From contig NZ_QWEZ01000001.1 of assembly GCF_003864255.1 (NCBI RefSeq), forward strand, positions 1,984,001 to 2,048,000: 64,000 nt of DNA. Reading direction: 5' to 3'. The notes under the pieces were generated by a model. That model searched no databases. It saw nothing but the letters and a program-made list of their open reading frames with translations, and was not told the DNA's origin. This stretch comes from Aestuariirhabdus litorea. GTDB taxonomy: Bacteria > Pseudomonadota > Gammaproteobacteria > Pseudomonadales > Aestuariirhabdaceae. Position numbers and translations under genes: made by a program. Below, piece by piece: positions 35,364-52,924 of the stretch; within the stretch, counting starts at the first letter, position 1; each line of letters begins with the position of its first letter.

Positions 35364-35568
35364 TTTTTGACCATCCTTAGGCCTCCCATGCCTTGAACCA
35401 AACACCGTTAACAGTGCTGCACCCACCGGAAAAACGCTTTATAGTAGCGGGTGTACGAGTACCGCCCACCACCCCATTAAAGGCATAATCCTTGCTTAAG
35501 TTAATAGCCATCAGCACTCTGGCTGGCAATCCGTGATCACAACCAACAGGGCGATCCCACAACCCACC
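35364..35568. other. Divergent promoter region of the cytochrome plus-strand operon
   Basis: This 205-base gap separates the heptahaem gene (minus) from the triheme gene (plus). It contains the sigma-54-like site at 35481-35497 and the stretch CGCTTTATAGTAGCG (35434-35448), a small inverted repeat that could be an operator. Apparent reading frames here are antisense to flanking genes. Confidence 0.5.
35481..35497 (+). promoter_or_regulatory. Candidate sigma-54 promoter of the triheme/undecahaem operon
   Basis: AGGCAT, five bases (AATCC), then TTGCTT. The GG and GC doublets sit at the exact -24/-12 spacing; relative to consensus TGGCAC-N5-TTGCW there are two mismatches in the -24 block and none in -12. 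Transcription would start near 35507, about 60 bases before the chosen ATG at 35569. Confidence 0.6.
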
Positions 35569-36183
35569 ATGCCGACAAAAGCAATAACCAAGCCAAACGT
35601 GATCAGCATCACCCTTTTCTTGCTGCTCTGTTTCGTCAGTGTATCGGTTCTGGCGGCCGACCCCAGCAAATGGCAAAGGCTGGAAGATGATGGCCTCCAC
35701 GACCCTTCCAACGATGCACTGGATGAGCTGCAACAGCCAGGCGATGCCCTATCCGGTCTGCCTTACGACTATGCCGGCAACCGTGTTAACTGGATCAAGG
35801 CGCTGCAGGACGGCCTTATCGCTCCACGAACCAACCTTTTTCCCGATACCAGCATTCGGGTGATTGATCTCGACATCATCATGAATAACACCGGTGAAAT
35901 GCATCTGGTGCGGTTTCCTCACCGCCAACACACTGAATGGCTTGATTGCAACAACTGCCACAACAAGATTTTTATCGACAAGGTGGATGCCACGCCAGTC
36001 AATATGTTTTCCATTTTGCAAGGGGAGTACTGCGGCCGATGCCATGGTGCCGTATCCTTCCCCTTGACCGAATGCAACCGCTGTCACAGCGTGCCTCGCA
36101 ACAGTTTCAAAGGCCAATTTGGTGCCCAGTATAAAGAGGGTGAAAGCCGCGAAGATTTCAAGGTGGAGGCCCCTCTCGAATGA
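35569..36183 (+). CDS. Secreted triheme c7-type cytochrome, copy A
   Basis: The 204-residue protein has a signal peptide (VISITLFLLLCFVSVSVLAA). Next comes a roughly 100-residue haem-free region (HDPSNDALDELQQPGDALS, NRVNWIKALQDG), then a C-terminal c7 module with three haem sites: CNNCH, CGRCH and CNRCH, after the sequence FPHRQHTEWLDC. The same layout recurs in the C-terminal half of the protein at 47158-48117. GTG at 35533 is an alternative start; neither start has a clear ribosome site. It is the first gene of a plus-strand operon and overlaps the next by ATGA. Confidence 0.85.
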   Translation: MPTKAITKPNVISITLFLLLCFVSVSVLAADPSKWQRLEDDGLHDPSNDALDELQQPGDALSGLPYDYAGNRVNWIKALQDGLIAPRTNLFPDTSIRVIDLDIIMNNTGEMHLVRFPHRQHTEWLDCNNCHNKIFIDKVDATPVNMFSILQGEYCGRCHGAVSFPLTECNRCHSVPRNSFKGQFGAQYKEGESREDFKVEAPLE

Positions 36184-36566
36184 CATACCGGATCCCTGTA
36201 TTTCTTTGCGCCCTCTTGGCCTCGGTCACGGTGCTATCACCCCTGCCAGCCCAGGCCGAATACGCAGACGTGGTGCTCAACAAGTACGCCGAAGCGGCGG
36301 GCATGCGGCCTGTGATCTACCCCCACTGGTTCCACCGCATCCGCTTTCGCTGCAAAGTCTGTCACAACGAACTGGGCTTTGAGATGCGTGCCGGGGCAAA
36401 CGATGTCACCATGGCTGAGATTATCGAGGGCCAGTTCTGTGGCATGTGCCACAACGGGCAAATCGCCTGGTCTACCGAGCACTGTGACCGCTGCCACACT
36501 GGACTGCCGGGGCTCAAGAGCGGGATTCGCGGCTCAAATGAAACTTCCGGCCCCGGCCGCTGGTAG
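36180..36566 (+). CDS. Secreted triheme c7-type cytochrome, copy B
   Basis: The 128-residue protein has a cleaved signal peptide (cleavage after LPAQA, residue 26) and three haem sites (CKVCH, CGMCH, CDRCH) within a compact c7 domain starting YPHWFHRIRFRCKVCH. It is a clear paralogue of the protein at 48132-48551: both share the AGMRP...PHWFHRIRFRCKVCH and GQFC...IAW blocks. As a soluble periplasmic carrier it would shuttle electrons to or from the outer-membrane complex. The start ATG overlaps the previous stop codon. Confidence 0.9.
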   Translation: MTYRIPVFLCALLASVTVLSPLPAQAEYADVVLNKYAEAAGMRPVIYPHWFHRIRFRCKVCHNELGFEMRAGANDVTMAEIIEGQFCGMCHNGQIAWSTEHCDRCHTGLPGLKSGIRGSNETSGPGRW

Positions 36567-36597
36567 ACACATCAACGATTGGGGCCCAGGCACAGCG

Positions 36598-37695
36598 ATG
36601 ACAGCTTCCGCACAACCGACAAAAAGCGTTTTCTACCTGTTGGCGTTAATGGTCATCGCCCCCCTGATAGCTGCCTGCAGCTCCTCCCCCCGTACAATGA
36701 GTTTCGAGCTGCCCGAGGCCTCAGACCAAACTGGTCGCATGTGGCCCTCTCCCCCCGAACAACCCCGTTACGCCTACATTGGTGATCTGGTCGGCGAAAG
36801 CAACTTCCAGGATGAGATAAAAGAGACCAAACAAACCGCCCAACGCATTTGGGAATTCATCGCAGGGATCATCGGCAATAATTATGAACCGGTGGTGTTG
36901 GAGCGCCCCCAGTCGGTTGTCGCTGATAGCCAGGGTAACGTCTTCACAACCGATGTAGGCCGTCAGGCCGTCGTAGCGTTCAAGTATGCTCAAGGTGAGA
37001 TGGAGGTCTGGTACAACGCAGACCGGTCAAGCGGCTTTGCAACACCGGTAGGAATCACGCTCACCAACAGCGGCACCCTCTTGGTGACTGATGCGGAAAG
37101 AAAGGAAGTCTTTGAGCTGGACACCAACGGAAGCCCCCTCAGCCAATTTGGGAAAGGCGCCCTTGAGCGACCAACAGGTATTGCACAAGACCCCGCTACC
37201 GGCTTTATCTATGTAGCAGACACCCAAGCCGACAACATTAAAGTGTTCAATGCAGGGGGTGAGCTGATCGATACCATAGGCGCCAGCGGAGATGCCCCTG
37301 GCCTCTTCAATGCACCCACACACCTCAGCATAAGAGGTCAGCAGCTTTATGTGGCAGATACTCTCAATGCCAGAATCCAGATAGTTGGCCTGGATGGAAC
37401 CCCACAGATGACCGTAGGCCAAAGAGGGATTAATGTGGGCCAGTTTTCTCGACCCAAGGGGGTGGCCACCGACAGCGAAGGAAATATCTATGCCATGGAG
37501 TCTTACTTTGATCACCTGTTGGTCTTTAGCCCTAAAGGTGAGTTTCTCTTACCCATAGGTGGAACAGGCGTTGAAGCTGGCCATTTTTTCCTGCCAGCGG
37601 GCATTTGGGTAGACAGCACGGATAAAATATACATTGCTGATATGATGAATGGGCGTATTGCCATCTTTCAGTATTTGGGGAGCGGTAATGAGTAA
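36598..37695 (+). CDS. NHL-repeat beta-propeller lipoprotein
   Basis: This 365-residue protein has a lipoprotein signal peptide with lipobox LIAAC (Cys27). About six NHL-type repeats follow, such as LERPQSVVADSQGNVFTTD, LERPTGIAQDPATGFIYVAD, FNAPTHLSIRGQQLYVADT and FSRPKGVATDSEGNIYAME, forming a six-bladed propeller. NHL propellers bind proteins or redox partners and recur next to multihaem cytochrome genes in extracellular electron transfer clusters. Serine after the lipidated Cys is compatible with outer-membrane sorting. It overlaps the undecahaem gene by 8 bases. Confidence 0.88.
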   Translation: MTASAQPTKSVFYLLALMVIAPLIAACSSSPRTMSFELPEASDQTGRMWPSPPEQPRYAYIGDLVGESNFQDEIKETKQTAQRIWEFIAGIIGNNYEPVVLERPQSVVADSQGNVFTTDVGRQAVVAFKYAQGEMEVWYNADRSSGFATPVGITLTNSGTLLVTDAERKEVFELDTNGSPLSQFGKGALERPTGIAQDPATGFIYVADTQADNIKVFNAGGELIDTIGASGDAPGLFNAPTHLSIRGQQLYVADTLNARIQIVGLDGTPQMTVGQRGINVGQFSRPKGVATDSEGNIYAMESYFDHLLVFSPKGEFLLPIGGTGVEAGHFFLPAGIWVDSTDKIYIADMMNGRIAIFQYLGSGNE

Positions 37696-40384
37696 TCGAG
37701 GTATGAGTCATATCGTAAAAGCAGCAAGCCTACCGCTGCTTTTGCTCCTTTGGGGTGCCAACGCAGTCGCCGCCCCCTCTCCCAATATGCCTCGAAGTGC
37801 GGATATCAGCAGCACCAAGCATAACCTCTCCAACGCCTATCCAGAGGCAACGGACCCCAGAGAGGTCAAGGCCACCGGCGAAAGCCAGATCTGCGCTTTC
37901 TGCCACACGCCCCACGGCGCCAACCTCAACGCCGAAGGACCACTTTGGAACCGTAACCTCTCCAACGAGACCTATATCACATACGACTCCAGCTCCATGC
38001 AGGCCAATGTGGACGCCAACCCCGGTGGTGCGTCCAAGCTGTGCCTTTCCTGCCACGACGGCACCCTGGCGATCGGCAACGTCAATGTCCTCGAGGGCAA
38101 CACCAACGTCAGCATCAGCATGAGCGGCACCGGCGCAGGGGGTGTCATGCCCTCGGGTCTGGGGCTCAACACCGGTTTTACCCGCAACCTGGGCACCGAC
38201 CTGCGCAACGACCACCCGATCTCCTTCGACTTCGACAGCAGCAAGGTCGGTGGTCGACTGGCGGCGGCCGATGGTGAGCTGCGGGATCCACAAGACGCGG
38301 ATGGCACTCACATCAGGACCCCGGACCCCAAAAGCAGCGACCCGAGCGTGCGCCACCCCCTGACGCCACTGGACAAAAATGGCAAGGTGCAGTGCACCAG
38401 CTGCCACGACCCCCACGTATCGGGCCAAGACCTGCCCGCGGGTACCAGTATTGCGGCCACCGAAGACCCCAACAACATCAAGTTCCTGAGAACTCGCCGC
38501 TACCAGATGAATGCGCCCGTAGGGGGTGATTTTGATGAGGATAACGATATTGTCTGCCTGGCCTGCCACGACAAACTGGGGCAAACCTGGGCCAATTCAG
38601 TTCACGCAGCCAACACCGCTGATGACCAGTACCGTATCTGGTCTGCCGATATGCGCGATTTCCCACGCGACCTGAGGGTATGGCAAGCCGCCTGCCTAAA
38701 CTGCCACGACACGCACACGGTGGAGGGATCCCGTCGCCTGTTGCGCGAAGGGACCGACGATACCCCCGCCGCTCAGCAAGCCAAGCAGGGCGGGAACCCC
38801 GCCCTGGAGGAAACCTGCTACCAGTGCCACCGGGCCGATGACAACACCAACGCCCTGAAAGTGGGCACAACCGCCCCCAACATCAAGGATGAGTTTGAGC
38901 TTAGTAACCGCGCCATGCCCATTCGCAGCAGCCAACAGGCCGCCGGAGTGGAAACCCACGATATTACCAATGCGGACTTCTTTGAGGGGGATGTCGACCT
39001 GGACGCCAGTGGGGAGGACAGTAACGGCAACCTGGCACTGGGTTACGGCAACCTTAACAACCGCCACGTCGAGTGTACCGACTGCCACAACCCCCACCGC
39101 ATGCTTAGCAATAGCAAGTGGGATGGCGGTGGCACCCCGGGGCAAGGCACCCACGAGCACACCGACAGCACCAACCACACCAACGAGATCTCCGGGGTTC
39201 TCTACGGCACTTGGGGCGTAGAGCCGGTTTACAACAGCGGCCCCAACGGGCGCAAGTTCGGCACCCCGGATGCGATGCCGATTCGCTTCAAGATCAAGTA
39301 CGGCACCGGCAACGAGCGGGTCACCGCCGAATACCAGATCTGCCTCAAGTGTCACTCCAACTACGCCTACCAGGATGATGGCTACCCGGAAAGTCCGACC
39401 CGACCCGCGCTGGGCGCACCGGGGACACCCAGTACCGGCACACCAGGCACAAGAGCCGCCACTACGGACTTCCTGTACTACACCAACCAGGCGATGGAGT
39501 TCCAGGCGCCCAGCACCCACCAGGGGCAGGTCTCTAACGGTACCGATGCTGGCGCCACCTTCAACACCAACAACCACCGCAGCTGGCACCCGGTAATGGC
39601 ACCAACCGGCCGAACCCCTCTGACCCGGGGCGCCAACCGCCTCAACTGGCGCGCCCCCTGGGACAACAACGTCGGCAACCAGACCATGTACTGCACCGAC
39701 TGCCACGGGGCCAGTAACGGGACCACGGAAAATTCCACCCCGGGCACCAAACCCTGGGGCCCCCACGGCTCCAACAACGACTTTATCCTGCGCGGCGTGA
39801 TGAAGCGCGGGATCGGCCAGGACCTAACCACCGTCGGTGGCCGGGGGCTCTGTTTCAAATGCCACTACGAGGGCCAGTACCGGGGTAGTGGTACCGAAGG
39901 CCTTGGCGGCAGCAGTGGCTTCGGCTCCAGCCTGGGTTGCTCCAACGATGGGGTAGGCAGCGCTTGCGACAAAGACCCCGGCGGCAACGGCCACACCTTC
40001 CACGCCTCCGCCGTCGAGGTGGATATGGTCTGCACCTGGTGCCACGTGGCGGTGGTGCACGGCTGGAAAAACAAGGCGTTTCTGGTGAACCTGGAGGATA
40101 TCGGCCCGGAAGCGATCTGCCGTAGTATCGACCGTAACATCTACGGGGTCAGGGGCCCCAGCGGCCTGTGCACCATCGGCCAACCCATCGAGGCCGGCAG
40201 CCGCGTCAGCATCCGCCCCGGCGGGTTCAACAATAATGAAGGCTACAATAACCCCCCCTACTACGTGAACGCCCGATTAAGACTTCAGGGGTTTGCCCGC
40301 AGCGGCCGCTGGGGCGAGGGCCACTGCTACGATAAGCCCACCATGGAAGACACCATGTGTGCCCGCCGCAACGCCGGCTACTGA
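37688..40384 (+). CDS. Undecahaem c-type cytochrome (11 CXXCH), secreted
   Basis: The 898-residue protein has a signal peptide (VKAASLPLLLLLWGANAVAA) and eleven haem sites in order: CAFCH, CLSCH, CTSCH, CLACH, CLNCH, CYQCH, CTDCH, CLKCH, CTDCH, CFKCH, CTWCH. The first part (SSTKHNLSN, CAFCHTPHGANL, LWNRNLSN) matches the tetrahaem protein at 51970-52824. Long Gly/Asn/Thr-rich, haem-free segments between sites suggest a large extracellular fold. It is the likely surface-exposed electron terminus of the conduit. I chose the ATG at 37688; MSHIVKAAS at 37703 is an alternative. A long hairpin follows. Confidence 0.92.
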   Translation: MSNRGMSHIVKAASLPLLLLLWGANAVAAPSPNMPRSADISSTKHNLSNAYPEATDPREVKATGESQICAFCHTPHGANLNAEGPLWNRNLSNETYITYDSSSMQANVDANPGGASKLCLSCHDGTLAIGNVNVLEGNTNVSISMSGTGAGGVMPSGLGLNTGFTRNLGTDLRNDHPISFDFDSSKVGGRLAAADGELRDPQDADGTHIRTPDPKSSDPSVRHPLTPLDKNGKVQCTSCHDPHVSGQDLPAGTSIAATEDPNNIKFLRTRRYQMNAPVGGDFDEDNDIVCLACHDKLGQTWANSVHAANTADDQYRIWSADMRDFPRDLRVWQAACLNCHDTHTVEGSRRLLREGTDDTPAAQQAKQGGNPALEETCYQCHRADDNTNALKVGTTAPNIKDEFELSNRAMPIRSSQQAAGVETHDITNADFFEGDVDLDASGEDSNGNLALGYGNLNNRHVECTDCHNPHRMLSNSKWDGGGTPGQGTHEHTDSTNHTNEISGVLYGTWGVEPVYNSGPNGRKFGTPDAMPIRFKIKYGTGNERVTAEYQICLKCHSNYAYQDDGYPESPTRPALGAPGTPSTGTPGTRAATTDFLYYTNQAMEFQAPSTHQGQVSNGTDAGATFNTNNHRSWHPVMAPTGRTPLTRGANRLNWRAPWDNNVGNQTMYCTDCHGASNGTTENSTPGTKPWGPHGSNNDFILRGVMKRGIGQDLTTVGGRGLCFKCHYEGQYRGSGTEGLGGSSGFGSSLGCSNDGVGSACDKDPGGNGHTFHASAVEVDMVCTWCHVAVVHGWKNKAFLVNLEDIGPEAICRSIDRNIYGVRGPSGLCTIGQPIEAGSRVSIRPGGFNNNEGYNNPPYYVNARLRLQGFARSGRWGEGHCYDKPTMEDTMCARRNAGY

Positions 40385-40438: not shown

Positions 40439-41455
40439 ATGAGAGCTAATGTGCTGACCCGTCCGCTTGATTTCCTCGCTTCCCTGCGGCTTACCCTGGT
40501 GGCCCTGGTACTGTTGGGAGGGGGCGTGGCGCTGGTTATCCAGTTTGAGGTGGATGCCACACCGGCGCTGGCACCGGCCATCGGCCTGCTGGGGCTGAAT
40601 CTGGTAAGCGCTATTTTGGTGAAGGAAAAGATACGCAGCAGCCTGCCCCTGCTGCTTTTTCACCTGGCGCTGCTGACGCTGCTGGTCCTGCTGGCCCTGA
40701 GCCGAGCCACCTACCTCAAGGGGTGGGCCACACTGATTGAGGGAGAGGCTTTTGAGCAGCTGGATGGCGTCCTGCACCAGGGCCCGCTGCACCCCTGGAT
40801 CAGCCCCTTGCCGCTGGCTGAGGGGCCGATTCAGGGGGGGTTCGAGGCGCGTTTTGATGAGGAAGGCCGCCGCGGTACCACCCGCAGCCTGCTCTACCAG
40901 CCCGGCACCGGTGCGCCCATCTACATCGATGATACAACCCCCTTAAATGTTGAGGGTTACCGTCTGGGTGTCTCCCTCAACCTCGGCTTTACCGCCCTCC
41001 TGAGATGGGTTCCGGATAACGGCAGTGCTGAGGTGCTTGGCGGCGTCGATTTTCCCGATATCATCAGCGAGCCGGATGGTCAGGGGCTGGAGTGGACACT
41101 GCCAAACGGCGAACCGATCTGGACCGGGCTGGAGATCCTCAGCCCCCGCAAAAGCTTTTTCTACCCGGAATTCAGGGTGCCGGAGCGTTACCAGCTGGTG
41201 GTTCGCCATCAACAGCAACGACACCCCCTACAGGAAGGAGAGGCGCTTTTGCTGCCCGGCGGCCAGCTCCGCTTTGAATCCCTGCACCGCTGGATCGGCT
41301 ATGAGGTGTTCTATGACTGGACCATCCCCTGGCTGCTGGCCACCTGCCTGCTTGCCATCGGGTTTCTGGGCTGGTACCTATGGGAGCGAGTAACCTCAAC
41401 CCCCTGGAACAGGGCGGATCAACCGGAATACACGAAGGAGCCCAACGATGCCTAA
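40439..41455 (+). CDS. resB: ResB-like cytochrome c biogenesis protein (System II)
   Basis: The 338-residue protein has transmembrane helices near residues 15-35, 45-60, 68-85 and a final one at about 300-320, with a large periplasmic domain between: LASLRLTLVALVLLGGGVAL starts the ResB pattern, and WIGYEVFYDWTIPWLLATC closes it. It is shorter than typical ResB. ResB and CcsA form the System II haem handling complex that attaches haem to apocytochromes. The eleven-haem gene lies directly upstream. It overlaps ccsA by 8 bases. Confidence 0.8.
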   Translation: MRANVLTRPLDFLASLRLTLVALVLLGGGVALVIQFEVDATPALAPAIGLLGLNLVSAILVKEKIRSSLPLLLFHLALLTLLVLLALSRATYLKGWATLIEGEAFEQLDGVLHQGPLHPWISPLPLAEGPIQGGFEARFDEEGRRGTTRSLLYQPGTGAPIYIDDTTPLNVEGYRLGVSLNLGFTALLRWVPDNGSAEVLGGVDFPDIISEPDGQGLEWTLPNGEPIWTGLEILSPRKSFFYPEFRVPERYQLVVRHQQQRHPLQEGEALLLPGGQLRFESLHRWIGYEVFYDWTIPWLLATCLLAIGFLGWYLWERVTSTPWNRADQPEYTKEPNDA

Positions 41456-42260
41456 TGAAACCCTGCTGCTATGGGCCAGCCTGATGGTGTATGTGGCCGG
41501 AGGCTGCACCGCCATCATCGCCACCGTATTCAAACGCCGCCCGGAGCGCACTGTTTTGGCTTTAATGCTGCTGGGCCTGCTGCTGCAGACGCTGGCCATT
41601 GGCCTGCGCTGGGAGCGGTTGGGGCATGGCCCCTTCAATACCATGTTCGAGATTCTCTCCAGCAATATCTGGAGCCTGACCCTCTTCTTTTCGATCGTCT
41701 ACTGGCGTATCCGTGCCATTCGCCCCATCGCCGTCTTTGTCCTACCGGTACTCTTTATGATGATGGGGTGGATGATGATGATGCCCGATCACGACAGCAT
41801 ACTGCCCACCACTTACCAGACCGTTTGGCTGTACGTCCACATCGGCTTCGGCAAGGTGTTTATGGGGGCGCTGCTGGTGAGTTTCGGGCTGGCTATGGTA
41901 GTGCTGCTGCGAGAAGGGGCCTTTATCAAGGAGAACTTTGCCCGCTTACCCGACAACCGTTCGCTGGATGAGCTGAGCTACCGCTTTATCCTGCTGGCAC
42001 TGATCTTCGACAGCCTGATGCTGGTGGCCGGCGCCATCTGGGCACAGGAGGCCTGGGGTCGATACTGGGCCTGGGATCCGCTCGAGACCTGGGCCTTTGC
42101 CAGCTGGCTGCTGCTGGCCTTTACGCTGCACTGCCGGGTCACCTTCCGGCCACAGCCACTCTACTCGGCCATGCTGGCGATCCTGGTGTTCGCCATCTCC
42201 TTCATGACCTTCTTCGGTATCCCCTTTATCAACCAGGTGCCCCATAAAGGGGCGGTGTAG
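41448..42260 (+). CDS. ccsA: CcsA/ResC-type haem handling protein (System II)
   Basis: This 270-residue protein has about eight transmembrane helices and the tryptophan-rich haem-binding motif WGRYWAWDPLETWAF typical of CcsA/CcmC/CcmF proteins. The flanking His in LYVHIGFGK and TLHCRV are candidate haem ligands. Together with ResB it should export haem and ligate it to the Cys pairs in periplasmic cytochromes. Finding a dedicated System II pair inside a multihaem locus suggests maturation devoted to these cytochromes. Confidence 0.88.
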   Translation: MPNETLLLWASLMVYVAGGCTAIIATVFKRRPERTVLALMLLGLLLQTLAIGLRWERLGHGPFNTMFEILSSNIWSLTLFFSIVYWRIRAIRPIAVFVLPVLFMMMGWMMMMPDHDSILPTTYQTVWLYVHIGFGKVFMGALLVSFGLAMVVLLREGAFIKENFARLPDNRSLDELSYRFILLALIFDSLMLVAGAIWAQEAWGRYWAWDPLETWAFASWLLLAFTLHCRVTFRPQPLYSAMLAILVFAISFMTFFGIPFINQVPHKGAV

Positions 42261-44125: not shown

Positions 44126-45250
44126 TCAGGCAGCCATAGAGACGAAGGTTACCCGGTTACGGCCATTGTGCTTGGCGTCGTAAAGCAGGTCATCCACCTT
44201 CTCGAGCAGGCTCTGGATGCTATTGCCCGGCCCGCTCAGGGTGACCCCGATACTGGTGGTGAAGTTCAGCGTCTCGCCACCCGGGGTTTTGATCGGATGC
44301 AGCTCACAAGCCTGGCGAAGCCGTTCGGCCATCTTCTGGGCCTGCTGCTCATCCACGTCACGTAAAAGGGCAACAAACTCCTCCCCTCCATAGCGACCCA
44401 CCACATCGGTGGGGCGCAGGTGAGCTTTGACCAGCTTGGCAAACTCGCGCAGCACTTCATCACCGGTCATGTGACCGTAGGTGTCATTGATACGTTTGAA
44501 GTAGTCCAGGTCAAACATCAATATGGCAAAGTGCTCATCGGGCTGGGCTTCAGAGATGGCCAGCTCCATATTGCTCATCAGCATGGCACGGTTGAAAAGC
44601 CCCGTCAGGGGATCCGTGGTCGCCTGGCGGTAGAGTCGCAGAAGAAGGTTAAGGTAGCTTGCCTGGGCCCATAGCGCGATCATCATCAGCAGAGAGATCA
44701 ACCAGAAGTCGAGCAGGGCCGGAGTGGTCATTAAGCCGCCGCGCATCAGGTGCGCCAATACCAGCCAAACCAGGACCAGCACCCCGGCAACAAACCCCTC
44801 ACGCAGGCTAAGGGGGAAGATGGTCAGGGCAGCGATGTACACAAAAGGCAAAAACGAGTATCCCATCGCGAACCCTTGCCGACCCGCTTCTCCCAGAACC
44901 CACTGGGCATAAAAATAGAAGCCGCCCAACGCCAGCAGCAACAACCCGAGCAATACTCGATTTTGATTGAGTGACCGAAGCTTGAAGCTGGATAGTCCAA
45001 TCACCAACAGGGCACCGGCCAACACCACCCGGGCGATGGTAATCGAAAATGCATAGTCACCGCTGAGCGTTGCCAGGTCGACAGGAATCCAGAGGATACC
45101 GAGCAGGGCGAAGGAAAAGGTCAGTACCCGGACTCGACGGGCAATATAGCCGGCTCGGGTGTAGTTAAAGTCGTCGGAGTGGTTCTTTGCCGCAATCAGG
45201 TCGGCGAGATGGAAGTGCGTGTTTAACGAATGGACAAGCTGGGACAACAC
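44126..45250 (-). CDS. Membrane diguanylate cyclase (GGDEF domain)
   Basis: The 374-residue protein has around six transmembrane helices in the first 200 residues (FALLGILWIPVDLATL, ALLVIGLSSFKL, LLMMIALWAQASYLNLLL). Then comes a GGDEF domain with the active loop GRYGGEEFVALL. The inhibitory I-site RPTD lies five residues before GGEEF, so product inhibition by c-di-GMP is expected. It should make c-di-GMP, a signal often tied to biofilm growth on surfaces. I chose GTG at 45250 (GGAGAG upstream) over TTG 45271. Confidence 0.9.
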   Translation of the reverse strand: MLSQLVHSLNTHFHLADLIAAKNHSDDFNYTRAGYIARRVRVLTFSFALLGILWIPVDLATLSGDYAFSITIARVVLAGALLVIGLSSFKLRSLNQNRVLLGLLLLALGGFYFYAQWVLGEAGRQGFAMGYSFLPFVYIAALTIFPLSLREGFVAGVLVLVWLVLAHLMRGGLMTTPALLDFWLISLLMMIALWAQASYLNLLLRLYRQATTDPLTGLFNRAMLMSNMELAISEAQPDEHFAILMFDLDYFKRINDTYGHMTGDEVLREFAKLVKAHLRPTDVVGRYGGEEFVALLRDVDEQQAQKMAERLRQACELHPIKTPGGETLNFTTSIGVTLSGPGNSIQSLLEKVDDLLYDAKHNGRNRVTFVSMAA

Positions 45251-45336
45251 CAGATGCTCTCCTGAAATCAATCCTTGATGGATAGCACATTAAAACAGGG
45301 GGCTGCGCGGGTCAATCAGGCAGCCGGTAAAATGGC

Positions 45337-45368: not shown

Positions 45369-46259
45369 TTAACCGGGTATGTAAACACCGCCCCGTCGAA
45401 TCGCTTTTACCAACTCTTTGGTGGAAAGGTCGAGTTGGTCAATCGCCTCCTGATAGTTGCCATCAGCAGCCAGCGCCTCTGCTTTCTCTCTAAAGCCAAG
45501 GGCTGTTTCAAGTGCGGCGTCGACGGCCTGTGCAATCGAGGGTGATTTTTCGCGCTTTTCCTTGAGCAGTACGTTAACCAGCATCTGGTGAGTATCATTA
45601 CGATCCACCTCGTAGTGGTACTCCTCCTCCTTGCTCGCGAAGTTCAGGCTGCGCACCAGGGTATCCCCACCGCGAAGCCCTTCAATATTGGTCTTGATCG
45701 TATTCAACGCCCCTTCGAGCACCCCCTTGCCCTGGGTGAACAACTTACGATCATGCAGCTGCTGCGCACTGACAATGAGGTTGTCCACCTCGGCATGGGT
45801 CTGCTTGGCGATTTTATCCGCCTTTTTTTCAGCAGCGACGGCATCAAAAGCTTTCAACAGCGCCTGTACGCTTTCCAGCTTCTTGTCGTAGTCAGCTTTG
45901 TCTTTGGCTTCTCGAACCTCGGCAGGCTCGGCGGACTTAACGGCTTCGAACATCACCTTGAGGGCTTCGTCCAATGCCTTCTTGGAATCCTCCCCCTCAA
46001 GCTCCTGGGCTTGCTCATAGAGGCTTTTGGCGCGCTGGTGAAGCTCGGCAGCTTTGGGGTCGTTACTGGCTTCAATCTGTTGCGCTGCGGTGGAGCGATA
46101 GATCAGGTTGCTCGCGAAGCCCATGCGCGGATCGCTTCCCGCCTGGGCAATCATCAAGGGCTGGGCAGCCAGCCCGACACTCAGGGCAACCGAAAACAGT
46201 GTCGCTGAGGCAAGGGAAAGCGACTTGATCAATGATCTACAGGGTGTTGACTTGTTCAT
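45369..46259 (-). CDS. Secreted helical protein of unknown function, paralogue 1
   Basis: The 296-residue protein has a signal peptide (SLASATLFSVALSVGLAAQP) and is then almost wholly helical and charged (SLYEQAQELEGEDSKKALDE, AEKKADKIAKQTHAEVDNLI). It shares a stretch with the next upstream gene: VRSLNFASKEEEYHYEVDRN here and VHSLNFTSPSEEYEYELRRL there, as well as a short hydrophobic end (RRGGVYIPG versus RTAGVMVP). I chose the ATG at 46259; the longer reading to 46391 lies inside the neighbour. It has no haem motif. Family not recognised. Confidence 0.75.
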   Translation of the reverse strand: MNKSTPCRSLIKSLSLASATLFSVALSVGLAAQPLMIAQAGSDPRMGFASNLIYRSTAAQQIEASNDPKAAELHQRAKSLYEQAQELEGEDSKKALDEALKVMFEAVKSAEPAEVREAKDKADYDKKLESVQALLKAFDAVAAEKKADKIAKQTHAEVDNLIVSAQQLHDRKLFTQGKGVLEGALNTIKTNIEGLRGGDTLVRSLNFASKEEEYHYEVDRNDTHQMLVNVLLKEKREKSPSIAQAVDAALETALGFREKAEALAADGNYQEAIDQLDLSTKELVKAIRRGGVYIPG

Positions 46260-46290
46260 CAGTTGTCTCGAATTATCAAATAGCAAACGA

Positions 46291-47151
46291 TTAGGGAACC
46301 ATGACACCGGCCGTACGAAGCGCGCGCGACATCTCTTTCGCTGCACCCTCCAGGCTGTCAATAGCCTGTTCCATCTGGCCACTCTCGGCAAAGCTTAGTG
46401 CTTGTGCCCGCTTAGTCTCTGCCAGTTTGAGATACTCCGATATTTTATCATCACTGGCGGTACTCTTGCCGCTTGATCGTGTCATCTGTAGCAGCGCCTG
46501 GTAACTCTTCAAGCGCCGCAGCTCATACTCATACTCCTCGGAGGGTGAAGTAAAGTTCAGGCTATGCACCACCGTCTGCTTATCCCTTAACTCGGAGATA
46601 AAGTTAACCAAGGAGTTATAGGCCAGGTACAGGGTCTCCTGCGCTTTCAACCCCTCACCCGATGCTCGCTGCTGCTGGGCCAGGTCGAGCTGCTCCTGAA
46701 CCTGTGCCAGTCGCTCCTGAACACCGGGAGTAGATGGTTGATTTTCGAGCGAACCAATAAATGCCAGAATGCTTTCGCGCAGGGCCAGATACTCACCGCT
46801 CGTCACTTGCTGCGGCTTTTGAGTGATACGACCGGTCGCCCCAGACAGCAGCCGCAGCGTTTCATTGGCCAACTGGGCAGCCTGTTTGTAGGCCCCCAGT
46901 TCAAGCTGTATTTCGGCGGCATGCATGGTCTGGCGAGCCATTGAGAGCAGTGACTTGGCCCCGCCATTATCGCTCTGCTCAATGGCCTGGATTTTTTCAC
47001 TGCCCTGCATCATGCTCTGCACCAACTGCAGCTTCTGGCGCGCAGCCGCTTCATCGTTGTCCGTTGCTGCAATGTGTACAGCACTGACCGTCAATGCCCC
47101 CGCTAAAAGCGGAAGCAACAACCAACGAAGAGTGATAGAGCCTGAAAACAT
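46291..47151 (-). CDS. Secreted helical protein of unknown function, paralogue 2
   Basis: This 286-residue protein has a signal peptide (LRWLLLPLLAGALTVSAVHI) and a helical body with TPR-like pairs (MHAAEIQLELGAYKQAAQLA and LYLAYNSLVNFISELRDKQT). It is the homologue of the gene at 45369. Both follow the c-c7 fusion cytochrome in one operon starting at the sigma-54-like promoter near 48.71 kb. The stop of the cytochrome gene lies 6 bases upstream of this ATG. No Cys pairs and no haem motif. A scaffold or chaperone for the cytochromes is a guess. Confidence 0.75.
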   Translation of the reverse strand: MFSGSITLRWLLLPLLAGALTVSAVHIAATDNDEAAARQKLQLVQSMMQGSEKIQAIEQSDNGGAKSLLSMARQTMHAAEIQLELGAYKQAAQLANETLRLLSGATGRITQKPQQVTSGEYLALRESILAFIGSLENQPSTPGVQERLAQVQEQLDLAQQQRASGEGLKAQETLYLAYNSLVNFISELRDKQTVVHSLNFTSPSEEYEYELRRLKSYQALLQMTRSSGKSTASDDKISEYLKLAETKRAQALSFAESGQMEQAIDSLEGAAKEMSRALRTAGVMVP

Positions 47152-47157: not shown

Positions 47158-48117
47158 TTACTTCTTCTGTGAGTGACAACGACGGCACTCAGACACAGGG
47201 AACGCGACCTTACCGTGGCATACACCACACTTTTCACCCATCAGGATCGACGCCATGCTGATCTGGTTGGCGCCCTTCTTGGGGATGAAGATCGCAGGGT
47301 GGCAGTTGGAGCAATCCAACCACTCAGTGTGCTGCTTGTGAGGGTATACCACGTTGGGCATTGATCCCTTCACCTCACGCACAATATTCAGATCCATCAC
47401 GAACGGCTTCTTGTTAGGATCCATGCGGTCGAAACGCGGGTTGATATCGCCGTTTTCCAGCGCCTTTACCCAGTCAACATGGTTACCAAAGGCGTTAGAG
47501 GGCATGGAAGCGAAGGCCTCCTTGGGTTGCTGCAGAGCGTACACGTCCTCGTTTTCCGGATCGTGAATGCCATCTTCAAAAGGAGGTGGGTTCCACTCGG
47601 CGCGCGACTTCATCAGGCGGTTAAACGTGTTCACCGGCTTCTTCTTGGCAGCGCCAGCAGCGTTGGCGGCCGCCGTTGGCTGTGCATTAGCCTCGGCATT
47701 GGGGGCCGCTGCGGCCTCTTTTTTGGGCTTGGCTTCTGCCGCCTTGGCAACCGTTGGCTTGGTGTTTTGCTTATCGCTCAGTTTGACCTTGGCATCCTCA
47801 AGCAGGAAGGCAACCGCATTTTCAATATCCCCGGCGCTCAACGCGGGGTTGCCACCCTTGGCGGGCATATTGCCTTTACCATTGACGGCGTTATCGACCA
47901 AGGCACCAAAGCCCTGGGCCACTCGCTTGCTCCAGTCGGCATTGTCGCCAATTTTCGGGGCTCCCATAACACCAACACCGTGACAGCCGGCGCAGTTGGC
48001 ATTAACAATTTCTTTACCTTTAGCCGTATCAGCCGCTTGTGCACTGCCCATCAGCCCGAGGACCAGGACGGGAACCATTACCAGGGATTTACCCAGTTCA
48101 ATATTGAAATTTTTCAC
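47158..48117 (-). CDS. Fusion cytochrome: class I cytochrome c plus c7 triheme module
   Basis: The 319-residue protein has a signal peptide (LVMVPVLVLGLMGSAQAA). A monohaem class I (cytochrome c5-like) domain with CAGCH and the distal MPAKGG Met follows. Then comes an Ala/Lys/Pro-rich linker of about 50 residues (KPTVAKAAEAKPKKEAAAAP), and a triheme c7-like domain with CSNCH, CGVCH and CRRCH. The C-terminal part matches the protein at 35569-36183, including PHKQHTEWLDC. It probably links periplasmic carriers to the c7 pool. I chose GTG at 48117 (GGGG upstream). Confidence 0.88.
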   Translation of the reverse strand: MKNFNIELGKSLVMVPVLVLGLMGSAQAADTAKGKEIVNANCAGCHGVGVMGAPKIGDNADWSKRVAQGFGALVDNAVNGKGNMPAKGGNPALSAGDIENAVAFLLEDAKVKLSDKQNTKPTVAKAAEAKPKKEAAAAPNAEANAQPTAAANAAGAAKKKPVNTFNRLMKSRAEWNPPPFEDGIHDPENEDVYALQQPKEAFASMPSNAFGNHVDWVKALENGDINPRFDRMDPNKKPFVMDLNIVREVKGSMPNVVYPHKQHTEWLDCSNCHPAIFIPKKGANQISMASILMGEKCGVCHGKVAFPVSECRRCHSQKK

Positions 48118-48131
48118 GTCTACTACCCCTG

Positions 48132-48551
48132 TTACTTGGTCGCTTTTGGCTTGGGAGCAACCAACTGCTGCACAGTGCTCTGGTGAACCTGGGTCGGTGT
48201 ACCCGGCGTACCCGAGTGACACAGGTTGCAGTTTTCTACCGACCAGGCGATCTCACCGTTATGGCAGGCGCCACAGAACTGGCCGTCGATGATCTTGAGC
48301 ATGTTGATGTCGTTACCGCCCGCCTGGAACTTGAATCCAAGGTCGGCGTGGCACACTTTGCAACGAAAGCGAATACGGTGAAACCAGTGCGGAAAAACCG
48401 CGGGGCGCATACCCGCGCCATCGGAGTAGTTATTAATCACGATATCGCCGTACTCAGCATTGGCAGGCCCGATAAAGCCTCCCACTACGGTCGCCGTCAG
48501 CAACACCAGCAACAGGCGTCTAAAAATCCCCAAGGCGTTCTTCTGTGTCAT
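48132..48551 (-). CDS. Secreted triheme c7-type cytochrome, copy B'
   Basis: The 139-residue protein has a signal peptide (RLLLVLLTATVVGGFIGPANA) and three haem sites (CKVCH, CGACH, CNLCH). It matches the gene at 36180-36566 over the whole c7 domain, including PHWFHRIRFRCKVCH. The C-terminal tail is longer and positively charged (APKPKATK). It is the first gene of the minus-strand unit and lies about 140 bases after the sigma-54-like site. ATG at 48563 is an alternative start. Confidence 0.9.
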   Translation of the reverse strand: MTQKNALGIFRRLLLVLLTATVVGGFIGPANAEYGDIVINNYSDGAGMRPAVFPHWFHRIRFRCKVCHADLGFKFQAGGNDINMLKIIDGQFCGACHNGEIAWSVENCNLCHSGTPGTPTQVHQSTVQQLVAPKPKATK

Positions 48552-48879
48552 CTCTATGGTCACAAATCTATGGGCCAGCTTGGCCGGTTCCTGTTTCCTA
48601 CGCGCTCACACAACCGGTGATTGCGCATACCTCATCTAGTAAAAACAAACGCGTCCTTTCGCCCCAACTCGCCGGGCAGAATCCTAGATCACTTAATAAG
48701 CAATATGAGTGCCAGTTCACATAAAAAGCGGCGGCACGGATGGCTGCTTCGTCACAAACTTGCGCACAGACAATGAGTTGGGGGAGGTTAACGGGAGCAG
48801 AGGTGTCCAATCCAGCGCCTCTCTCGGAGGCTCAGTGACTCCCAAATTCGGGAAGCATCCCCAGAGAGTGGAATCGAGC
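48552..48879. other. Intergenic region with sigma-54-like promoter
   Basis: This gap of about 330 bases separates the triheme gene from the end of the beta-barrel gene. It holds the promoter at 48698-48715 and otherwise no gene. A GCCTCTCTCGGAGGCT repeat (48816-48831) is a possible weak terminator for the barrel gene. Confidence 0.5.
48698..48715 (-). promoter_or_regulatory. Candidate sigma-54 promoter before the triheme/fusion cytochrome operon
   Basis: On the minus strand the sequence reads CTGGCAC-TCATA-TTGCTT, an exact match to TGGCAC-N5-TTGCW with the GG and GC doublets at -24/-12. Transcription would start near 48688, about 137 bases before the ATG at 48551. It is the best of the three sites. 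Confidence 0.8.
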
Positions 48880-50730
48880 TTAGAAGTCCCCAAAGTAGCG
48901 GCGGGCGCGAACATTGAACCTGTAGTCCTCCCCTCCATCGCGCTTAAAGGCGGTTAAATCGCTATTGAGCTCCAACCGCCCGACTCGATAGGTGAGCCGA
49001 TTCTCCCAGCTGGCCTCGTACTCATCCTCGTCATCGAAAAGGTTTTGATCACGCCCGCCGGATCGAGTCTCATATTTTTTGTTGAGGCGCAACGAAGAGC
49101 GAAACGACAGACTTCGAACATTCAACAGGCGGTTATCCACATAAGAGACATAACCGCGGGCATAGCTACGGCTGATATTCTCTCCACTTTCACGCAACTC
49201 ATCCAGATATTCCAGGGTCATATCCGCCTCCCAGTTCCGGTAACGGCTGAGAGTGGAGGTGCGATTTACCTGAAGGTAGTAGCGCTGCGCCTCTTTGATA
49301 TCGGCCTCCAGCACATCGAAGGCGCGCTGATCCTCCACAGAGGTGCGCAAAAAGGAGGAGACCCCGGGCTCGACCCGGCGGAAGGTAAGACTCACGCGGT
49401 GTATCACCGACTTATCATCAGTACTGTCAGCTCTGCTGTCAAAGTTGGAGGCGAACTGCTGGTCGAACTGCATCCGCGTATCCTCAGCAAAACTGAAGTT
49501 AAACTCCCGGGTTAACGCATGACCCAGGCTGCCGGCAAGCTGCTGGGAGCTGCCATCCTCCTCTCTTGAGTTTCGCACCGATGCGCGGGCGAAGCGGTTA
49601 TAGTCGTAGGTACGCCAGCGAATCGCGACCGGGCGGTAGGAGACCCCCAACCGTTCGTTGTGGGTGGCATAGGTTTGCTCATTATCCCGCCTGCCCCCGA
49701 CACTCAGCTGGCCATCGAAACGCAGGGCGGTAGAGTAATCGTAACTGACCCCCGTCCCCAGATCGAGGGTATCGCGCTTCGCCCCCCCTCCATCCGAGGT
49801 ATCTACTTCACGGGTTGCCAGGCGGCCAAACCCGCTGAGGCGCCAACGCTTATACTTCAGGGGACGCCACAACAGGCTGTTGTTCTGCTGCCAATCACGT
49901 TCGGTTCTTGTGCGGTTAGCGTATCGCTGCTCCTCATCAAAGAGGGAGAGAAAAGACTCATTGGAAAAACTGGCTTGCGGATTAAAGCGGTAACGGGAGA
50001 AAAAACGGCTGGTGTCGGTTTGCTCGATCAGGCCCCTCCTATCAGCCACCTTGAGGCGAGAGCTGTCCCGACGCGTAAAGTTGTAACTACTCTTCAGCGC
50101 ATGGTGCTCAGACCAACTGTTGTCGGCAGACAGTGCCAGGCGATAGCGCTGCTCGATACCATCATTGCGACTATCGTTGGTCTCCGCATACAACTCCCCC
50201 TGGTAAATGTCATGACCCAGAGTTCGATATCGTTGCTCCAGACCAAGCGACAGCGTGGTAAGAGAGTCGTTTTCCCCAAAGGAACGGCGCCGCTCGCTGG
50301 ATTTCAACCCAAGAGTGGCGGTAAAAGGAAATCGGCTGGTGGGGTAGAGGGAAAAAAGGGTCTCACCGCTGCCGGTCAGTGAGGCAGAGGAGTTTTTATA
50401 GTCCCCCTGAGACTCAAGCAGACTGAGGGTAAAGTCACCGTTCATTAGCAACCTTGAATACCAGGGCCTCCACACATAGCCAGCGCTCTGGGCGACTGCC
50501 CGCAGATTCAGTTCCTCTTCCGTCCCGCTGTTGGTACGAGTCCCCGCTGAGTCGGAACGGCTGCGCTCCTCCCGATGACTGAGCCCCAGAGAGCCACCGA
50601 AACGAACCCCCGGATTGGACATATAAACGGCAGAGTGGGCCTCAAGGGAGACCCCGAGAAGCAAAAGACAGGGCAATATGGTGGCGACACACCGCTTCAA
50701 GCAACGCCTTCCCCTACCGGTCGATTCCAT
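48880..50730 (-). CDS. Outer-membrane beta-barrel protein (cytochrome conduit porin candidate)
   Basis: The 616-residue protein has a signal peptide (IPCLLLLGVSLEAHSA or nearby) and then a long series of alternating polar/aromatic strands (RFGGSLGLSHREERSRSDS, LAGSLGHALTREFNFSFAED), rich in Arg and Tyr, with a terminal Phe (RRYFGDF). This is a large barrel with about 20-26 strands, similar in plan to MtrB/PioB/OmbB porins that hold haem proteins in the outer membrane. No CXXC at the N-terminus is seen. It follows the prolyl isomerase gene in the same unit. Homology to MtrB cannot be shown by eye. Confidence 0.8.
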   Translation of the reverse strand: MESTGRGRRCLKRCVATILPCLLLLGVSLEAHSAVYMSNPGVRFGGSLGLSHREERSRSDSAGTRTNSGTEEELNLRAVAQSAGYVWRPWYSRLLMNGDFTLSLLESQGDYKNSSASLTGSGETLFSLYPTSRFPFTATLGLKSSERRRSFGENDSLTTLSLGLEQRYRTLGHDIYQGELYAETNDSRNDGIEQRYRLALSADNSWSEHHALKSSYNFTRRDSSRLKVADRRGLIEQTDTSRFFSRYRFNPQASFSNESFLSLFDEEQRYANRTRTERDWQQNNSLLWRPLKYKRWRLSGFGRLATREVDTSDGGGAKRDTLDLGTGVSYDYSTALRFDGQLSVGGRRDNEQTYATHNERLGVSYRPVAIRWRTYDYNRFARASVRNSREEDGSSQQLAGSLGHALTREFNFSFAEDTRMQFDQQFASNFDSRADSTDDKSVIHRVSLTFRRVEPGVSSFLRTSVEDQRAFDVLEADIKEAQRYYLQVNRTSTLSRYRNWEADMTLEYLDELRESGENISRSYARGYVSYVDNRLLNVRSLSFRSSLRLNKKYETRSGGRDQNLFDDEDEYEASWENRLTYRVGRLELNSDLTAFKRDGGEDYRFNVRARRYFGDF

Positions 50731-50769: not shown

Positions 50770-51825
50770 TTAGGAGCCGGGCTCACCCCTGGTGGGCTCC
50801 GGCGGCTCCTCTGCACCAGCAGCAACACCTGCAGGCTGCCGATACTCTTCACTCAGTGAAATATCACTCTGGCTGCGCAACCGCTTTATCAGCTCCATCC
50901 AACGTTGTTCTCCCTGCTCCCTTTTCGCCAGAGCCTCCGCACGATCATAAACGTCGGCAAGCGCATTCAACTTCTGGGGATTCCGCTCATCGAGACGGAT
51001 GATCAGCCACCCCTCCAGCAACCGGATCGGCTTAAGCAGGTCACCGACCTCAGCCCCATCCAGTGCCTCTTCTACCGTTTCACCCAACATACCCTGGTGA
51101 ATAAAACCCATATCCCCACCCCGCTCGGCTGAGGGGTCGCCGGAATACTCCAGCGCCAAACTGGCGAAATCCCCCCCTTCCTCAAGGGCCATGTAAAGGG
51201 TTTGGGCAAGCTCACCCACCTCCTGCCAACGGGCAGAGGGGGCTGACGGGGCAACCGCTAGCAGAATCACCGATACCCGCTGCTGAACCGGCGAGGTAAA
51301 CTTGTCCGGATGCCTGAGGTAATAGGCCTTTACCTCCTCCGGGGTAACAGAAGCCGCTTCCTTTACTTGGGATTCAAGCTGTTTCACCAGCTGAATGCGC
51401 TCCTGCCGGCATTGGTGAAAGGCCAAAATGTTAGCGCGCTGCGCCTCCCAAGCAGGGTTATCTCCATATTGCCCATCGAGGTTAGCCAGATTCGCCTGGA
51501 TGGAAGGATCATCCACAGTCAGGCCTCGCTTTAGCGCTTCCTTTGCGAGCAGTCTTGAGTCTACCAACAGATCAAGCACCTCTCGCCTGAAGCCGCCCTC
51601 ATCCCCCTCTGGCACGGAGAAGTGATAATAGCGCTCCCTGGCGGTCAAACTTTCCGAGGCACGCAGCTCGATATCGCCGATCTCCATCCCGTTCACCGTC
51701 GCAGCGACTTTGACACCCTCGGGCGCATTATCCCCGTTCTGCTGCACGCACTGCTGCCCCCAAGCTGGAGCAGCCCCCAAACAGCAGAGAGCGCAAACTC
51801 GCCAGGCGGCCCTTTTTTTTGTCAC
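50770..51825 (-). CDS. Periplasmic parvulin-type peptidyl-prolyl isomerase
   Basis: The 351-residue protein has a signal peptide (VCALCCLGAAPAWGQQ), then a SurA-like chaperone region (GGFRREVLDLLVDSRLLAKE) and a parvulin domain at about residues 190-290. The latter has VSVILLAVAPSA, FASLALEYSGDPSAERGGDMGF and LKPIRLLEGWLIIRLDER. Such isomerases help fold outer-membrane barrels and accompany porin-cytochrome clusters in other bacteria. I chose GTG at 51825 (AAGG upstream) over GTG 51849. It lies directly before the beta-barrel gene. Confidence 0.88.
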   Translation of the reverse strand: MTKKRAAWRVCALCCLGAAPAWGQQCVQQNGDNAPEGVKVAATVNGMEIGDIELRASESLTARERYYHFSVPEGDEGGFRREVLDLLVDSRLLAKEALKRGLTVDDPSIQANLANLDGQYGDNPAWEAQRANILAFHQCRQERIQLVKQLESQVKEAASVTPEEVKAYYLRHPDKFTSPVQQRVSVILLAVAPSAPSARWQEVGELAQTLYMALEEGGDFASLALEYSGDPSAERGGDMGFIHQGMLGETVEEALDGAEVGDLLKPIRLLEGWLIIRLDERNPQKLNALADVYDRAEALAKREQGEQRWMELIKRLRSQSDISLSEEYRQPAGVAAGAEEPPEPTRGEPGS

Positions 51826-51920
51826 CCAGAACCTTAAACCTCTCAACACCGGATACCCCCCTTACACCTTAAAAGGAGCAGCATACTCCCGAAGCAAACG
51901 CAAGAAAACCAACACCGTTA

Positions 51921-51969: not shown

Positions 51970-52824
51970 CTACTTATCGTGGCAACTCAGACACACATTA
52001 CTTCCGGTATTCTCAATACGAAGGAAGGTTGTGTTGCTAGTGTGCGGATCGTGACAGCTGGCACACTCAACGAATGGCTGGGCATTACTGTCTCCAGACA
52101 GATCGGTACGAGTGTAGAGCTGAATATCCTCCTTGTTCCGAGCATTGTCCGTGCCAGCACCCTGTGCGTTATCCACCCACCAAACAGGATTACTGTTGGC
52201 GATAGCCATACGGGGCAGATTGAAACCGGACGTACTCAGCATAGTGTTAGAACAAAGCGCACCGTCACCGCCGGTACAAGAAGTCGTGAGAAATCCTCCA
52301 CCAGCGTACTGGATACTGATCGGGTGGTCATCTCGCAGATCGGTACCGATTTTGGTGATCCCATCGAGCAGGAGTCCATTCGCGCTCCCCACAGTGGTAC
52401 CATCCCAGGTTCCGGCCATTGGAGAGCCAGTTGCGTTATAACCACCAGAGCCTGGAGCGTTAATCACAGAATTCATTGCCTGGGTACCGTCGTGGCAGGA
52501 GAGACAGGCCAGGGAGACGGAACCAATGGCAGCTTCCTTGCCCTGCAAAGAGCTAGTCTGAAGGGTTGCGTAGGTTGTGTAGGTAGGTGAACTGTTGATA
52601 TTGCGGTTCCACAGCGGCACGGGAGCCGAGGTATCGGAGCCGTGCGGGGTGTGACAGAACACGCAGATCTCTGCAGTACCATCAAACAGGTTATTACCAA
52701 CAACACCACCACTACCTAAGTTATGCTTGGTCCCGGAGATTCCGGCAAAGGTTGCTGCACTGGCAACCAGCAGGGCGCCACCGAGAGCGGCCAACCCTAT
52801 ATTTTTGGTCATTGACTTGAACAT
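51970..52824 (-). CDS. Tetrahaem c-type cytochrome, relative of the undecahaem N-terminus
   Basis: The 284-residue protein has a signal peptide (IGLAALGGALLVASAATFA) and four haem sites (CVFCH, CLSCH, CASCH, CLSCH) separated by Gly/Asn/Thr-rich stretches. Its first 60 residues (ISGTKHNLG, CVFCHTPHGSD, PLWNRNINSS) align with the start of the 11-haem protein, and the CHDPH and CLSCHD contexts recur. It has its own sigma-54-like promoter and IHF site. I chose the ATG at 52824. It may be a smaller surface or periplasmic partner of the large cytochrome. Confidence 0.9.
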   Translation of the reverse strand: MFKSMTKNIGLAALGGALLVASAATFAGISGTKHNLGSGGVVGNNLFDGTAEICVFCHTPHGSDTSAPVPLWNRNINSSPTYTTYATLQTSSLQGKEAAIGSVSLACLSCHDGTQAMNSVINAPGSGGYNATGSPMAGTWDGTTVGSANGLLLDGITKIGTDLRDDHPISIQYAGGGFLTTSCTGGDGALCSNTMLSTSGFNLPRMAIANSNPVWWVDNAQGAGTDNARNKEDIQLYTRTDLSGDSNAQPFVECASCHDPHTSNTTFLRIENTGSNVCLSCHDK

Positions 52825-52906
52825 GACTTTCGTCCTCATTCTAATTCTTTCACGGCGTATCGATTTTGCTAACTACGCGAGATTTCTCTCGACTTCACCC
52901 CTAACA

Positions 52907-52924
52907 AAGCGAATGTTGTGCCAA
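52907..52924 (-). promoter_or_regulatory. Candidate sigma-54 promoter of the tetrahaem cytochrome gene
   Basis: On the minus strand it reads TTGGCAC-AACAT-TCGCTT. The -24 block is a full match and the -12 block has one mismatch (TCGC for TTGC) with correct GC spacing. Transcription would start near 52897, about 73 bases before the ATG. Confidence 0.7.

Follow-up and report, generated by a model that had tools for sequence, protein, structure and literature searches.

P1 and P2, two adjacent proteins encoded in the window (the whole stretch of 64,000 nucleotides analyzed here), are homologous to each other, lack heme attachment sites, and close a cytochrome operon that is one half of a larger conserved conduit, Uet, which had gone unrecognized in the preliminary description of this DNA. 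Uet is a known but little-studied bacterial system that moves electrons across the outer membrane. Based on gene order, P1 and P2 appear to belong to the UetF (Tel_16525) family, as two paralogues that would fill the UetF slot of this porin-cytochrome conduit, and the reading we favor, with modest confidence, is that they are a periplasmic docking scaffold for triheme shuttles. The genes and sites concerned are as follows, in window coordinates.

35533..36183, plus strand: triheme c7 cytochrome, in the other half of the split cluster
36144..36566, plus strand: second triheme c7 cytochrome, in the other half of the split cluster
36379..37695, plus strand: NHL propeller, UetH/I-like; the actual start is probably more internal
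37649..40384, plus strand: UetJ-like undecaheme cytochrome, 11 CxxCH
40439..41455, plus strand: ResB-like cytochrome c assembly protein, 21.2 bits, below the cut-off of 24.6
41448..42260, plus strand: CcsA-like cytochrome c assembly protein
45369..46259, minus strand: P1, 296 aa, UetF-slot protein of clade A; heme-free, ten predicted helices, ends YIPG
46291..47151, minus strand: P2, 286 aa, UetF-slot protein of clade B; heme-free
47158..48222, minus strand: c-c7 fusion cytochrome, class I heme domain plus triheme c7, 4 CxxCH, TIGR04257 at 64 bits; UetD/E-like, gene start probably GTG at 48117
48132..48563, minus strand: triheme c7 cytochrome, TIGR04257, UetD/E-like; opens the P2/P1 operon
48699..48714, minus strand: perfect sigma-54-type site, TGGCACTCATATTGCT, upstream of the P2/P1 operon
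48880..50730, minus strand: UetC-like protein, 616 aa, no Pfam/NCBIfam family; "barrel" from its slot only
50770..51849, minus strand: UetB-like parvulin PPIase
51970..52839, minus strand: UetA-like tetraheme cytochrome, doubled CXXCH
52909..52923, minus strand: sigma-54-like site 5' of the tetraheme gene, one mismatch; evidence weak

The P1 gene starts at the ATG at 46259, while the listed 340-aa open reading frame begins further upstream, at a TTG. In a single BLASTP comparison P1 and P2 align at 35% over 112 aa (E 6e-16), and genome-wide each is the other's only second match, with E values of 1.5e-11 and 3.5e-12. Both N-termini carry a hydrophobic stretch that resembles an export signal when read by eye, the conserved block reads LVRSLNFASKEEEYHYE in P1 and VVHSLNFTSPSEEYEYE in P2, the C-terminal tails are GGVYIPG and AGVMVP, and the number of CxxCH heme attachment sites is 0 in each protein. 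The preliminary description, which had proposed two related secreted proteins with signal peptides, shared blocks, hydrophobic tails and no heme motifs, is thus borne out on each of these points.

P2 and P1 end an apparent four-gene operon that runs from the triheme c7 gene (48132-48563) through the c-c7 fusion, with gaps of ~14, 6 and 31 nt on our reading that the GTG at 48117 is the start of the fusion gene. The four genes would be carried on one transcript, in an operon that is, as previously described, otherwise cytochrome, and both P1 and P2 are probably periplasmic. The sigma-54-like promoter that had been noted for this operon also proved exact: TGGCAC-N5-TTGCW has its sole exact match in the window at 48699-48714, on the coding strand and ~135 nt 5' of the operon-opening triheme gene, where 0.09 matches would be expected by chance. 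When two mismatches are allowed, 82 sites are found in the window versus 86 expected, so the sigma-54 evidence here is limited to the exact site. Among related loci, sigma-54-like sites lie in intergenic DNA within 600 nt 5' of a Uet-type cluster gene in 16/80, a tally of our own made with three related patterns and without a shuffled control. Further along, the window encodes a sigma-54 response regulator at 57461-58813 and, at 61052-62563, a histidine kinase. On the other side, 97 nt after P1 on the same strand, lies a GGDEF-type gene (44126-45271, minus strand; GGEEF motif by eye), with a GC-rich inverted repeat, also seen by eye, between the two; its cluster is found in 7 loci, the window counted.

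All Uet gene types (A, B, C, D/E/G, H/I and J) are present in the window between 35533 and 52839, the "barrel" being taken from its slot only, and they are split into a minus-strand half from the tetraheme to P1 (52839 to 45369) and a plus-strand half of trihemes, NHL, undecaheme, ResB and CcsA (35533 to 42260). P2 and P1 come directly after the two c7-type genes; no triheme follows them, the other trihemes being on the opposite strand. A seven-heme cytochrome with a doubled CXXCH (34548-35426, minus strand) is divergent to the second Uet half, and two adjoining Reg_prop (two-component regulator propeller) proteins (53909-56337, minus strand) lie just outside the Uet genes; 9 loci, the window counted, have Reg_prop relatives close to the family.

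Single-protein searches of 145 relative genomes, a set that includes the own genome and in which those listed share its genus or order, found the family in the own genome only, the 144 others being without it, and profiles of the family and of UetJ likewise returned the own genome alone. Horizontal gain of the Uet genes of the window is therefore possible, since neither a family member nor UetJ was found in these 144 relatives. To the left of 22 kb the G+C content is 0.61-0.66, and to the right it is 0.51-0.59 except at 38-44 kb, where the undecaheme, ResB and CcsA genes and the next gene have 0.61-0.63; the case for horizontal gain is tempered because part of the Uet genes has host-like G+C.

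The system was reportedly named Uet (undecaheme electron transfer) in a 2022 paper. Its described components are the UetA tetraheme, the UetB PPIase, the UetC barrel, the UetDEG trihemes, the UetHI NHL proteins and the UetJ undecaheme (PMC10734462), and in the available portion of that source UetF is mentioned only among BLAST references; a literature search on "UetF" found no relevant paper. In Ca. Tenderia electrophaga, Tel_16515 and Tel_16520 are trihemes, Tel_16525 is a TPR protein, Tel_16530 is a triheme and Tel_16545 is the undecaheme (PMC5371394). Because these tags, counted in steps of five, fit the order UetD, E, F, G ... J in the portions of the sources at hand, we tentatively equate Tel_16525 with UetF. 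According to the excerpted text, the three trihemes Tel_16515/16520/16530 rank with the most strongly expressed genes and seem to share a transcript with Tel_16525 (PMC5371394), and a role for the "TPR" protein in aligning cytochromes was suggested there in 2017. Of the preliminary proposal that a scaffold, chaperone or spacer function would be new, the scaffold-type role is the best supported, but given this 2017 suggestion it would not be new. The Tenderia cluster resembles that of the window in having the TPR protein Tel_16525 in what we take to be the same slot; it differs in that this slot is filled by two paralogues in the window, where the cluster is also split into two divergent halves. 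PCC3 and the Mto/Mtr conduits share with Uet a porin and multiheme cytochromes (PCC3 comprises a porin, extracellular and periplasmic multiheme cytochromes and an inner membrane protein), but the excerpted descriptions mention no heme-free helical partner in them (PMC5566968, PMC10734462).

To place the family more widely, we searched the window's class with a two-row profile and found it in 42/369 genomes, the own genome included, so that the search for distant relatives succeeded and an orphan family is ruled out. Single-protein searches with P2 found nothing in plasmids and viral contigs. A scan of genome contigs gave 161 relatives, and the neighborhoods of the best 80 of these 161 loci were analyzed; the search patterns came from the P1-type clade, and conservation of EEYxYE and of the YIP tail in this set is therefore partly by construction. 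The record titles of these 80 name Rhodocyclaceae, Oxalobacteraceae, Ramlibacter, Rhodoferax, Dechloromonas, Aromatoleum, Gallionellaceae, Magnetococcales, uncultured Gammaproteobacteria and others. Counts "of 80 loci" refer to 79 relative loci plus the window, in each of which a family gene was called. Calls were made by a codon-usage script rather than a standard caller; it missed the family gene in L050, and L129, L135, L136 and L137, where no family gene was called either, were left out of all counts.

The common gene order is NHL / tetraheme / PPIase / barrel (taken from its slot) / triheme / triheme or c-c7 fusion, followed by the family in 1-3 copies / triheme / NHL / undecaheme / ResB / CcsA / TPR protein. 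In 68/80 loci a c7 gene is found no more than 1.5 kb from the family, and the immediate neighbor is a c7-type cytochrome upstream in 63/80 and downstream in 47/80. Within 10 kb of the family, in counts lowered by many short contigs and some missed genes, there are NHL genes in 64 of the 80 loci, UetC-like homologues in 63 (window included), PPIase in 56, tetraheme-type in 53, undecaheme-type (8 or more hemes) in 53, ResB in 46, TPR protein in 36 and CcsA in 34; the A, B, C, c7, F, NHL and J types are all present in the available DNA of 45/81 loci. The slot next to triheme genes is repeated in records titled Beta-, Gammaproteobacteria and Magnetococcales, the last including eight complete or near-complete Uet-type clusters (L083, L084, L088, L089, L093, L105, L111 and L112).

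In the remaining 12/80 loci the 1.5 kb on either side of the family contain no c7 gene. Two of these loci, L085 and L106, are Uet clusters without a called c7; the other ten have no Uet gene in their flanks. UetJ was sought in the genomes of seven of the ten (L037, L038, L040, L045, L049, L099 and L110) and was full or split elsewhere in 4, present as partial matches only in 2, and without any match in 1; the genome of L054 holds both a c7 neighbor of the family and UetJ. At L045 the family gene is followed by molybdopterin enzyme genes. In L072 (739-10870), the family gene comes after hydrogenase-maturation-like genes (by eye), with a [NiFe]-hydrogenase small subunit ~8 kb away, and L072, L098, L103 and L110 are single family genes in records of uncultured Gammaproteobacteria with no cytochrome called in their flanks.

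An 18-row undecaheme profile (E<=1e-60) found UetJ in 40/369 class genomes, and 38 genomes have both the family and UetJ, 4 the family only, 2 UetJ only and 325 neither (Fisher p 9e-45, kinship ignored); counted by genus, the family is in 32/272 and UetJ in 31/272. In both UetJ-only cases the contig ends inside the NHL gene, so that the cluster is cut. Among the family-only genomes, G230 and G353 have no multiheme gene in the available DNA, G176 has two three-heme open reading frames beside the family gene, and in G237 the family adjoins a triheme in another multiheme cluster, with no UetJ in that genome at E<=1e-60. This last cluster (L128, 1-19501) encodes proteins of 8, 7, 3, 24, 3 and 2 hemes with an NHL protein, a triheme c7 and the family member, and is possibly another conduit with the same partner.

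These distributions bear on the view that P1 and P2 are envelope spacers or other structural proteins that bind no cytochrome and are co-regulated with the conduit only because they are needed when it is made. The ten relative loci without a Uet gene nearby and the helical models without a significant fold match (below) would agree with such a role; the recurring slot beside triheme genes in Beta-, Gammaproteobacteria and Magnetococcales records, the near-perfect co-occurrence with UetJ and the fusion to an electron-carrier domain in some relatives all speak against it, and we give it only a slim chance.

To characterize the fold, P1 and P2 were compared with family models and structures. Both proteins stay below the cut-offs of all Pfam and NCBIfam models, and a PDB sequence search gave no match at E below 0.28. 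The earlier label of "unknown family" accordingly stands for curated models, but not for the literature, which has the Uet slot protein. AlphaFold2 (AF2) predicts all-helical structures of ten helices each, with mean pLDDT 88.9 for P1 and 87.1 for P2, in agreement with the mostly helical bodies proposed before; residues 1-40 of P1 are of low confidence, and the overall shape of both is uncertain because the pTM values are modest (0.58 and 0.49). When the two models were compared with the PDB by Foldseek, neither had a match at E<=0.001. VIA-align, run on the P1 model only, gave Z up to 10.5 (EzrA, designed repeats, BB0323) with large rmsd, in rows of a kind that the tool itself describes as usual among helical models, and was rejected as showing a known fold. 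A PDB-sequence profile search returned 54 matches at E<=1, of which the ten best are all designed helical proteins (best 3.7e-6), and we read these as composition. Weak matches to cytochrome b562 (E 0.33) and designed chlorophyll proteins raised a heme-binding helical domain; since the family as a whole has no conserved His, Cys or Met, we reject this as a trait of the family. Conservation in the family peaks in one block (F207, E213, E217, R220 and L227) and at G291 and S56.

Two weak similarities remain. The family resembles TPR proteins in its predicted helical hairpins and in an A..L..G....A...L..A spacing, and 23/72 members match Pfam TPR_2 at E<=0.1 (best 2.9e-5), which fits the "TPR" label given to the Tenderia protein in 2017. 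P1 itself falls under the cut-offs (12.9 bits vs 32.7 for TPR_16; 12.2 vs 27 for TPR_2) and P2 gives no TPR match; a TPR helix has ~15 residues, whereas 8/10 of the helices predicted for P1 span 19-32 residues (AF2, pTM 0.58). The second similarity is to YfdX (PF10938), over ~90 columns: 25/72 members match at E<=0.1 (best 3.2e-6), and hhalign gives E 1e-4 at a probability of 56%, with 37% in a second alignment, from 7 YfdX sequences only. P2 scores 11.4 bits against the YfdX cut-off of 26.6 and P1 has no match. To our knowledge, no cytochrome operon is associated with YfdX. In the accessible parts of the literature, YfdX is reported to be periplasmic with chaperone-like activity, and one YfdX protein reportedly keeps insulin from aggregating (PMC4941729).

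This similarity is one ground for the main rival explanation, in which P1 and P2 are assembly chaperones that hold apo- or newly hemylated trihemes until they are folded and their hemes attached, acting with the PPIase and ResB/CcsA and outside the working conduit. The trihemes adjoining P1 and P2 in the same operon, and the PPIase, ResB and CcsA in the same cluster, are also what this explanation expects. The same assembly genes count against it, however: because the clusters already have ResB, CcsA, a PPIase and a TPR protein (36/80), the UetF slot probably does not hold a further one. Moreover, an electron-carrier-like fusion, found in 19 relatives, makes little sense in a chaperone, and the high expression of the trihemes cotranscribed with Tel_16525, in the part of the study available (PMC5371394), hints weakly at a stoichiometric part. 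We favor the docking scaffold because the family repeatedly sits among trihemes, co-occurs with the conduit, has no heme site, is accompanied by separate assembly genes and is in some relatives fused in this way; we regard the chaperone as rather unlikely.

The fusion occurs in one of two branches of the family. A tree of 133 domains, which leaves out 3/122 family domains shorter than 200 aa, has one split of support 1.0, between clade A (80 domains, with P1) and clade B (53, with P2), and in two-copy loci the clade B copy comes first in 32/38, as P2 does in the window. An N-terminal H...C-x2-H-x2-M domain is present in 14/14 long members (442-546 aa as called), a proportion without frequency information since these loci were chosen for long open frames, and in 5/122 family genes of the best-80 loci and the window; all 19 of these cupredoxin-fused members fall in clade B. 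We take this pattern to be a type 1 copper site, from what is known of cupredoxins, and the domain is probably of that type, with a functional copper site predicted from its motif. The nearest Pfam model is PF25489, which 1/4 distinct genes passes (34.5 bits vs a cut-off of 27; the others 26.1, 19.4 and 18.8). A lipobox-like motif occurs in 7/14 long members by a loose pattern in a plausible place, with two more by eye. The loci of the long members are all Uet-type, with barrel-type, triheme, NHL, ResB and CcsA genes in 14/14, PPIase in 12 and UetJ in 13; at L125, UetJ is outside the stretch, elsewhere in the same genome. A profile search found no stand-alone cupredoxin gene in the best-80 loci and the window, where only the five family genes carry the domain. 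The Sideroxydans cupredoxins Slit_1816-1818 were considered as related and set aside: they are located in another gene cluster and, in the excerpt available, described without a link to the one studied here (PMC12016527).

It could be argued from these fusions that the family itself carries electrons or delivers copper, clade B through its cupredoxin domain and clade A through ligands of its own, namely His224 (80/80 clade A sequences) and Met226 (79/80). Neither P1 nor P2 contains H...C-x2-H-x2-M, however, although P2 groups with the cupredoxin-fused relatives; His224 and Met226, separated by two positions on a single predicted helix, would point in different directions; and both are missing from clade B, whose helical domain has no conserved His, Cys or Met (best column 32%), leaving no family-wide ligand. 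A copper or redox relay is for these reasons quite improbable as the family's function. Under the docking scaffold, the P2-type protein of some relatives would carry its own cupredoxin-like electron relay, probably type 1 copper, whereas in the window this domain is missing and the operon has just one single-heme domain, namely the class I cytochrome c that is fused to the neighboring triheme.

The c-c7 fusion is itself conserved, as 34/34 four-heme members of its cluster have one distant and three clustered heme sites. It is found in 0/14 cupredoxin loci with c7 genes versus 33/68 other c7 loci; the remaining five of the 19 cupredoxin loci lack c7 genes and are uninformative on exclusion. This non-overlap may be ancestry only, because cupredoxin loci and the others differ in origin and in how they were picked. 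A broader reading, which we advance as a doubtful extension, is that the family is a general heme-free scaffold for periplasmic triheme "wires", with two old paralogues that form a mixed scaffold where both occur, and that the conduit takes either of two one-electron modules that can replace each other: the scaffold may bear a copper domain, or the neighboring triheme a class I cytochrome c. If that were true, the non-overlap of cupredoxin and c-c7 would reflect function and not ancestry.

We propose that P1 and P2, as exported, heme-free, helical-hairpin proteins encoded with a triheme c7 and the c-c7 fusion, gather the small trihemes, presumably by binding them, and may align them between the inner membrane chain and the outer-membrane undecaheme/barrel complex. 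Counted against this proposal are the loci without a c7 gene (12/80) together with the two genomes without a multiheme gene, the weak similarity to YfdX, a family with reported chaperone-like activity, and the low pTM values. Within the literature that our search reached, which did not include the 2022 Uet-naming paper, the two paralogues, the cupredoxin fusions and the measured co-occurrence are new. The heme-free family is about as constant in the cluster as the undecaheme cytochrome and so offers a non-cytochrome marker for Uet-type clusters, and for extracellular electron transfer it provides a direct, testable handle on how small periplasmic cytochromes bridge the inner membrane to outer-membrane conduits.
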